Below, in pieces: positions 14,063-14,134 of a stretch of 23,476 bases of DNA. Below the pieces are notes generated by a model, which made no database searches, was not told where the DNA came from, and saw nothing but the letters and a program-made list of their open reading frames with translations. The DNA is from a virus. Position 1 is the stretch's first letter, and each line of letters begins with the position of its first letter. Both the position numbers and the translations under genes were made by a program. The stretch is from IMG/VR virus record IMGVR_UViG_3300025590_000046, positions 1 to 23,476 of that record. One strand, 5' to 3'.

Positions 14063-14134
14063 TTACTTATTCATTACATACATAGTAACTTCAAAGCCGA
14101 AACGCATTTCAGTAGCTGATGGTTTTGTCCACAT
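14063..14134 (-). CDS. pqqA: PqqA-like coenzyme PQQ precursor peptide
   Basis: A 23-codon gene on the minus strand, ATG 14134 to TAA 14063, with AAGGA 8 nt upstream. The peptide begins [14 protein letters not shown] and ends EVTMYVMNK. PqqA peptides of proteobacteria are typically 22-24 residues, start MW-x-KP and hold E-V-T-x-Y, in which Glu15 and Tyr19 are cross-linked by PqqE and become the PQQ skeleton; both are present at the same positions. PqqD would carry the peptide. No pqqB-E genes are visible, so the host must supply them. It is alone on this strand between early operons, with a TATAAT box at 14172-14167 on the minus strand. I know of no other peptide family with this pattern; activity is inferred. 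Confidence 0.88.
   Translation of the reverse strand: [23 protein letters not shown]

Follow-up and report, generated by a model that had tools for sequence, protein, structure and literature searches.

Phages of methylotrophic Methylophilales carry a 23-codon pqqA gene that probably supplies the PQQ precursor peptide to their hosts

A 23-codon gene for PqqA, the precursor peptide of the redox cofactor PQQ, is carried by the virus whose DNA we analysed here (a linear 23,476-base fragment recorded as a virus in IMG/VR, hereafter the window); the finding is confirmed and extends from this one phage to methylophages at large. More likely than not, pqqA is near-core in phages of the Methylophilales, where it occurs in several unrelated lineages and supplies only the consumable cofactor-precursor peptide, and PQQ supply is the bottleneck these phages most often relieve. 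The role that we consider probable, with good confidence, is that of a substrate-supply auxiliary metabolic gene, in which an extra pqqA copy with its own promoter would feed the PqqD/PqqE of the host.

The gene runs from ATG to TAA at 14063-14134 on the minus strand (23 codons plus TAA, 72 bases). In hmmscan searches its 23-residue product matched a single family in each library, namely PF08042 (PqqA) in Pfam, with E=3.2e-11 and 43.3 bits against a cut-off of 21.1 over profile positions 1-19 of 19, and the equivalog model TIGR02107 in NCBIfam, with E=2.3e-10 and 40 bits against a cut-off of 20. Given only 23 residues, these scores are far beyond chance, and the frame is confirmed as a genuine pqqA encoding the PqqA precursor peptide. 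A PqqA-like identity had been proposed by an earlier sequence-only reading of this DNA, and both profiles now bear it out above their curated cut-offs; the coordinates, strand, AAGGA with its 8-nt spacer, Glu15 and Tyr19 given in that reading likewise agree with the sequence. The two residues belong to an E-V-T-x-Y motif near the C terminus and have three residues between them; the cross-linked pair of M. extorquens PqqA is Glu16/Tyr20 (PMC10906245). The gene and its surroundings have the following features:

14063-14134, minus strand: pqqA (open reading frame, PF08042/TIGR02107, conservation, pN/pS 0.117), Glu15/Tyr19 being the residues that PqqE cross-links
14143-14147, minus strand: Shine-Dalgarno AAGGA, with an 8-nt spacer to the ATG, read from the sequence
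14145-14161, minus strand: 5'-leader stem CTTG/CAAG (14161-14158 with 14148-14145), its 3' arm overlapping the Shine-Dalgarno
14167-14172, minus strand: putative -10 TATAAT, last base 32 nt upstream of the ATG
13982-14052, no strand assigned: inverted repeat with arms 13982-13995 and 14038-14052, between the convergent SSB gene and pqqA
13715-13966, plus strand: single-strand DNA-binding protein (SSB) gene, convergent neighbour (PHROG 18154, E=2.4e-11)
13110-13715, plus strand: YqaJ/RecE-like exonuclease gene, the survey anchor (PHROG 149, E=6.4e-45)
14220-14456, plus strand: 78-aa open reading frame, divergent neighbour

Since the SSB gene, which ends at 13966, and the frame starting at 14220 are both on the plus strand, pqqA stands alone on the minus strand, as had been noted before. 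This layout is typical of the Venkman-like group and not of all methylophages, across which both neighbours lie on the opposite strand in 47 cases, one on the same strand in 27 and both on the same strand in 41.

The window encodes a terminase, portal, major capsid protein, endolysin, primase, helicase, Sak annealing protein, exonuclease and SSB, and pqqA is also present in cultured phage genomes; the gene therefore sits in a genuine phage genome and is not host contamination. Of the known phages, Venkman EXVC282S is closest, with a DNA match of 73% over 13% of the window and a terminase that is 83% identical, and its host is the OM43 methylotroph H5P1 (Methylophilales). The terminases of Pelagibacter phages are 44-47% identical to that of the window, and none of these phages gave a pqqA match when 50,697 phage records were searched by tblastn. 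The window phage is a lytic-type phage of methylotrophic Methylophilales. The sequence-only reading had named methanol and glucose dehydrogenase as the enzymes that might profit from additional PQQ; with Methylophilales methylotrophs as hosts, glucose dehydrogenase is irrelevant and drops out. Elsewhere in the window, a 1017-aa protein without a PHROG match (19425-22478, minus strand) carries four N-terminal DEFGGVLV copies with short linkers, and an endonuclease-like frame with a TTG start (15947-16516, plus strand; PHROG 3312, E=8e-22) lies downstream of the early genes.

The earlier proposal that the gene was kept for its own sake can be judged by its conservation at the site. Relatives of the Venkman-like type were gathered by their exonuclease, blind to pqqA, and the pattern with which they were scanned demanded neither Glu15 nor Tyr19. 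Among the best 80 of 431 relatives, pqqA was present in every one of the 76 contigs extending to the site, always on the strand opposite to the recombination genes, whereas the four contigs without it end short of the site. The exonucleases of these 76 contigs are 56-100% identical to that of the window, and pqqA lies 419-688 nt past the exonuclease in 75 of them and 1332 nt past it in one. P19250A-like contigs, likewise gathered by exonuclease with that of P19250A as anchor, have pqqA in 64 of the 66 that reach the site, with E15 and Y19 intact in 64/64; contigs L369 and L389 have lost it cleanly. The three remotest relatives of the P19250A exonuclease whose contigs leave space for pqqA (48%, 34% and 31% identity) are without it and, being outside the group, were excluded from the 66, and L410, remotely related to the MEP301 exonuclease (47% identity), likewise has no pqqA at the expected place. 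Both Glu15 and Tyr19 are kept in all 140 site-anchored copies. Of the outcomes in close relatives that the earlier reading had named as counting against it, absence of the frame and loss of Glu15/Tyr19, neither was observed. Over 40 distinct Venkman-type genes, pS is 0.38 and pN 0.045 (pN/pS 0.117), changes being mostly silent; E15, V16, T17 and Y19 are invariant in 40/40, and residues 4 and 6-8 vary in the same manner as in host peptides. Phage pqqA is under purifying selection and is maintained by it, and such selection on a monocistronic gene supports the view that it is kept for its own sake.

Two alternatives are affected by this result. It might be supposed that pqqA is passive cargo, a moron picked up repeatedly from hosts with little benefit, and its presence and absence among close Melnitz relatives as well as the two clean losses in P19250A-like phages fit that picture. 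However, retention in 76/76 (best 80 of 431 relatives) and 64/66 contigs, strong purifying selection and occurrence in several unrelated lineages make it unlikely, because in a compact phage genome a gene carried passively would decay. Alternatively, the short transcript unit and the structured leaders found in phages and hosts could reflect a small RNA that acts on host or phage messages, with the peptide being incidental. This we judge very improbable, given that changes concentrate at silent third positions, that leader sequences differ between phages, and that the window has no Rfam match.

Nearly all phage and host pqqA copies have AAGGA/AGGAGA at the same spacing, and -10-like hexamers are enriched 30-50 nt upstream of the ATG in 109 non-redundant phage leaders, while in host leaders (106) they peak 50-65 nt upstream. 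No -35 element was found for the window pqqA, and the promoter scan lists no consensus site on the minus strand. The leader stem, CTTGATTAACNAACnAAGGA, is common to the window, Venkman and MEP301, and other phage and host leaders are of unrelated sequence, yet also fold. The fold of the window leader is not significant (z -0.99); leaders as a whole fold somewhat better than shuffles (mean z about -1 in phages and hosts vs. -0.2 for random phage 60-mers), which is suggestive of a structured pqqA leader. In both phage and Methylophilales host leaders, whose sequences are unrelated, the hairpin tends to sit just after the predicted transcription start. Downstream, no canonical terminator was found between SSB and pqqA, and the inverted repeat at 13982-14052 (fold -21.4 kcal/mol, z -1.30, not significant) is possibly the shared transcript end of the two genes. 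In many Venkman-like contigs (e.g., L298 and L300) the last SSB codons, just past the pqqA stop, appear palindrome-like (GAGGATGTTCC..GGAACACCCTC), and this apparent palindrome might terminate transcription arriving from either side.

For so short a peptide, relatives were surveyed through degenerate DNA patterns and through the genes next to pqqA. A tblastn search of the peptide against INPHARED (50,697 phage records) matched nine Methylophilales phages (Venkman, P19250A, MEP301, MEP401, MEP402 and four Melnitz) and one spring-water phage whose host is unknown. Apart from two mislabelled Acinetobacter contigs, phages of other named hosts gave zero matches in the same records, and queries with K. 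pneumoniae-type and M. extorquens-type PqqA returned no further phages. The Acinetobacter phage MD-2021a matches were rejected: the inspected contig (L008, CAKLQF020000010.1) is here bacterial DNA with ppk, a pqqABCDE operon and a dipeptidase, and the other contig matches in the same way. Further methylophage taxa exist beside those covered here, among them HIM624-A and MEP431-434. In IMG/VR, the pattern FGFEVTMY was found in at least 120 contigs from several phage lineages. Single linkage on any one shared protein lumped all loci into one component, and a rule of two shared neighbour proteins gave about 19 groups among the matches listed, an approximate figure as many loci are fragments. One of the groups, of 15 contigs, is T4-like, judging by eye from its clamp loader and sliding clamp; another, uncharacterised, comprises 18 contigs with their own portal and capsid genes. 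Lineages with pqqA include the Venkman/P19250A/MEP301 type, the MEP401/402 Zobellviridae, Melnitz and other T4-like phages, and the uncharacterised 18-contig lineage. Melnitz-type phages carry it as a clean insertion next to, and upstream of, tRNA-Leu; close relatives lack this insertion, which is possibly a host-switch marker. The insertion at about 4998-5066 of L006 (Melnitz), for instance, is absent in L412, L413, L414, L417, L418 and L421, in which the next gene is 85-100% identical.

The gene has been easy to miss. It is unannotated in the Venkman, P19250A, MEP301, MEP401 and MEP402 records, for Melnitz and the Manatee Spring phage the gene call at pqqA is on the wrong strand, and phage pqqA is without a family in PHROGs. 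Hypothetical proteins annotated antisense to pqqA in L006 (Melnitz_152, 4961-5056) and in L007 (2067-2195) are probably miscalls.

The phage peptides are closely matched by those of the hosts. When FGFEVTMY plus one residue at each end was sought in 84,980 bacterial and archaeal species, it was found almost only in Methylophilales, whose peptides are identical or near-identical to those of the phages; the two commonest host peptides are the two commonest viral peptides among the viral matches listed, and by this homology Methylophilales PqqA equals the commonest viral forms. At the DNA level, none of 124 host genes exceeds 93% identity to the window gene, and exact in-register runs extend to 30 nt at most. 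By sequence comparison, then, the phage peptide is the host's own, but its DNA is not a host copy. A near-identical host gene, and a Melnitz copy that adjoins a tRNA gene, might suggest that these phages integrate into host pqqA in the way that others do at tRNA genes, the gene being a mimic of the attachment site. We consider this extremely unlikely: no tyrosine integrase (PF00589) occurs in the window, the five named phage records or seven related 36-39 kb contigs, the DNA match to host genes is limited as just described, and the whole frame is kept with its own start and ribosome site while silent sites drift. Prophages joined at host pqqA did not come up incidentally.

The OM43-type genomes searched have one to three pqqA each, with PqqE far away. 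OM43-type genomes (L146, L150, L212, L222, L228 and L247) have two tandem pqqA about 200 nt apart, and the tandem copies encode differing peptides (MWTQP.. and MWTKP../MWTTP..). Methylophilaceae have 3-12 pqqA and usually one pqqBCDEFG (PMC4109929), and in methanotroph expression data pqqA stands at 11,857-13,927 vs. 142-372 for the other pqq genes, a difference of at least 30-fold (PMC3615186). As the hosts multiply pqqA alone and not the enzymes, a 72-bp precursor gene would be the cheapest way to sustain the flow, and a phage copy fits a lever, precursor dosage, that the hosts already use.

PqqA is cut and cross-linked in PQQ synthesis and is therefore consumed; it is the only pathway component that is, at one peptide per PQQ. 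We propose that in infection pqqA would give a short transcript started at its own promoter, that host PqqD would bind the 23-residue peptide and host PqqE would cross-link Glu15 to Tyr19, and that host PqqFG, B and C would trim and mature the cross-linked peptide to PQQ. The cofactor would then load the PQQ-dependent (XoxF-type) methanol dehydrogenase, so that cofactor and methanol-derived energy flow might be sustained after host transcription falls. A PqqD/PqqE complex is described (PMC10906245), and PqqE was absent from 44/44 viral contigs searched. With the same tiny gene in every methylophage type examined, these viruses probably maintain the cofactor supply of the infected cell, and phage pqqA may raise PQQ or methanol oxidation.

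The opposite effect, which had been raised earlier as the alternative to supply, is that the peptide is a decoy that occupies PqqD/PqqE and lowers PQQ synthesis, for example to slow methanol oxidation or formaldehyde stress. A small peptide in excess could indeed compete with host PqqA. However, altered or lost reacting residues or C-terminal core would be expected of a decoy, whereas Glu15 and Tyr19 are retained in 140/140 site-anchored copies and the sequence equals host PqqA; with a phage peptide that is the host sequence, its reactive residues unaltered, supply is a far better fit than blocking. Viral co-carriage with a PQQ dehydrogenase also points the other way: on a 72-kb viral contig (G018, IMGVR_UViG_3300025120_009955, the record of L043), a PQQ alcohol dehydrogenase (608 bits) is encoded some 6 kb from pqqA, and these two and a molybdopterin oxidoreductase fall within about 8 kb. 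A decoy is thus improbable, and supply is the preferred reading. At about 33,989-41,940 of the same contig (L495 5989-10783; L043 ~750), a formate-dehydrogenase-like molybdopterin oxidoreductase, FecR, a curlin-repeat protein and a CHASE2-cyclase lie near pqqA, and the contig also holds a ribonucleotide reductase and other PHROG genes.

Some points speak against the supply reading. The hosts already hold several pqqA, so an extra phage copy need not be limiting; the two P19250A-like losses and the close Melnitz relatives without the gene indicate that pqqA is not strictly essential; and PQQ is stable once bound, so that there need not be demand for it within one infection cycle.

The methanol of oceans and lakes is oxidised by Methylophilales, whose phages are abundant. 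Should pqqA be present in almost all of those phages, the supply of PQQ precursor, and hence methanol oxidation, would be a common viral action point on one-carbon cycling. Phages and hosts that are already cultured as pairs make the question open to direct test, and the case shows that standard gene calling overlooks a conserved 23-codon metabolic gene.

The idea of a viral pqqA is not new, since Lake Baikal virus VP_266 carries pqqA with methanol dehydrogenase and was proposed as a case of viral auxiliary metabolism (PMC7678222, 2020), and a catalogue of viral genes in reservoir sediments includes pqqA/D/E (PMC13188868, 2026). The near-core status of pqqA in methylophages appears to be new within the library of open-access papers searched; there, the Venkman, MEP301, MEP401/402 and Melnitz papers leave pqqA unmentioned, their sole mention of PQQ being as a medium vitamin.

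Compared with known systems, the phage peptide shares with cellular PqqA (PF08042/TIGR02107; Methylophilaceae) its length, W-x-x-P leader and Glu15/Tyr19 core, and the genes are alike in having a start and ribosome site, a short leader and a stand-alone position. Unlike cellular PqqA, it is phage-borne and without PqqE where searched, and its silent sites and leader sequence differ. The VP_266 and reservoir-sediment pqqA were likewise proposed as viral auxiliary metabolic genes, but those are individual metagenomic reports, whereas here the gene is near-constant in cultured and uncultured methylophages, mostly without methanol dehydrogenase, and was overlooked in published isolate genomes. Cyanophage psbA is an auxiliary metabolic gene that supplies the fastest-used component of host energy metabolism. 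The logic for pqqA would be the same, in that the phage replaces the fastest-used part; psbA, however, is of the protein subunit/enzyme class, and phage pqqA would instead give a precursor peptide that is consumed.
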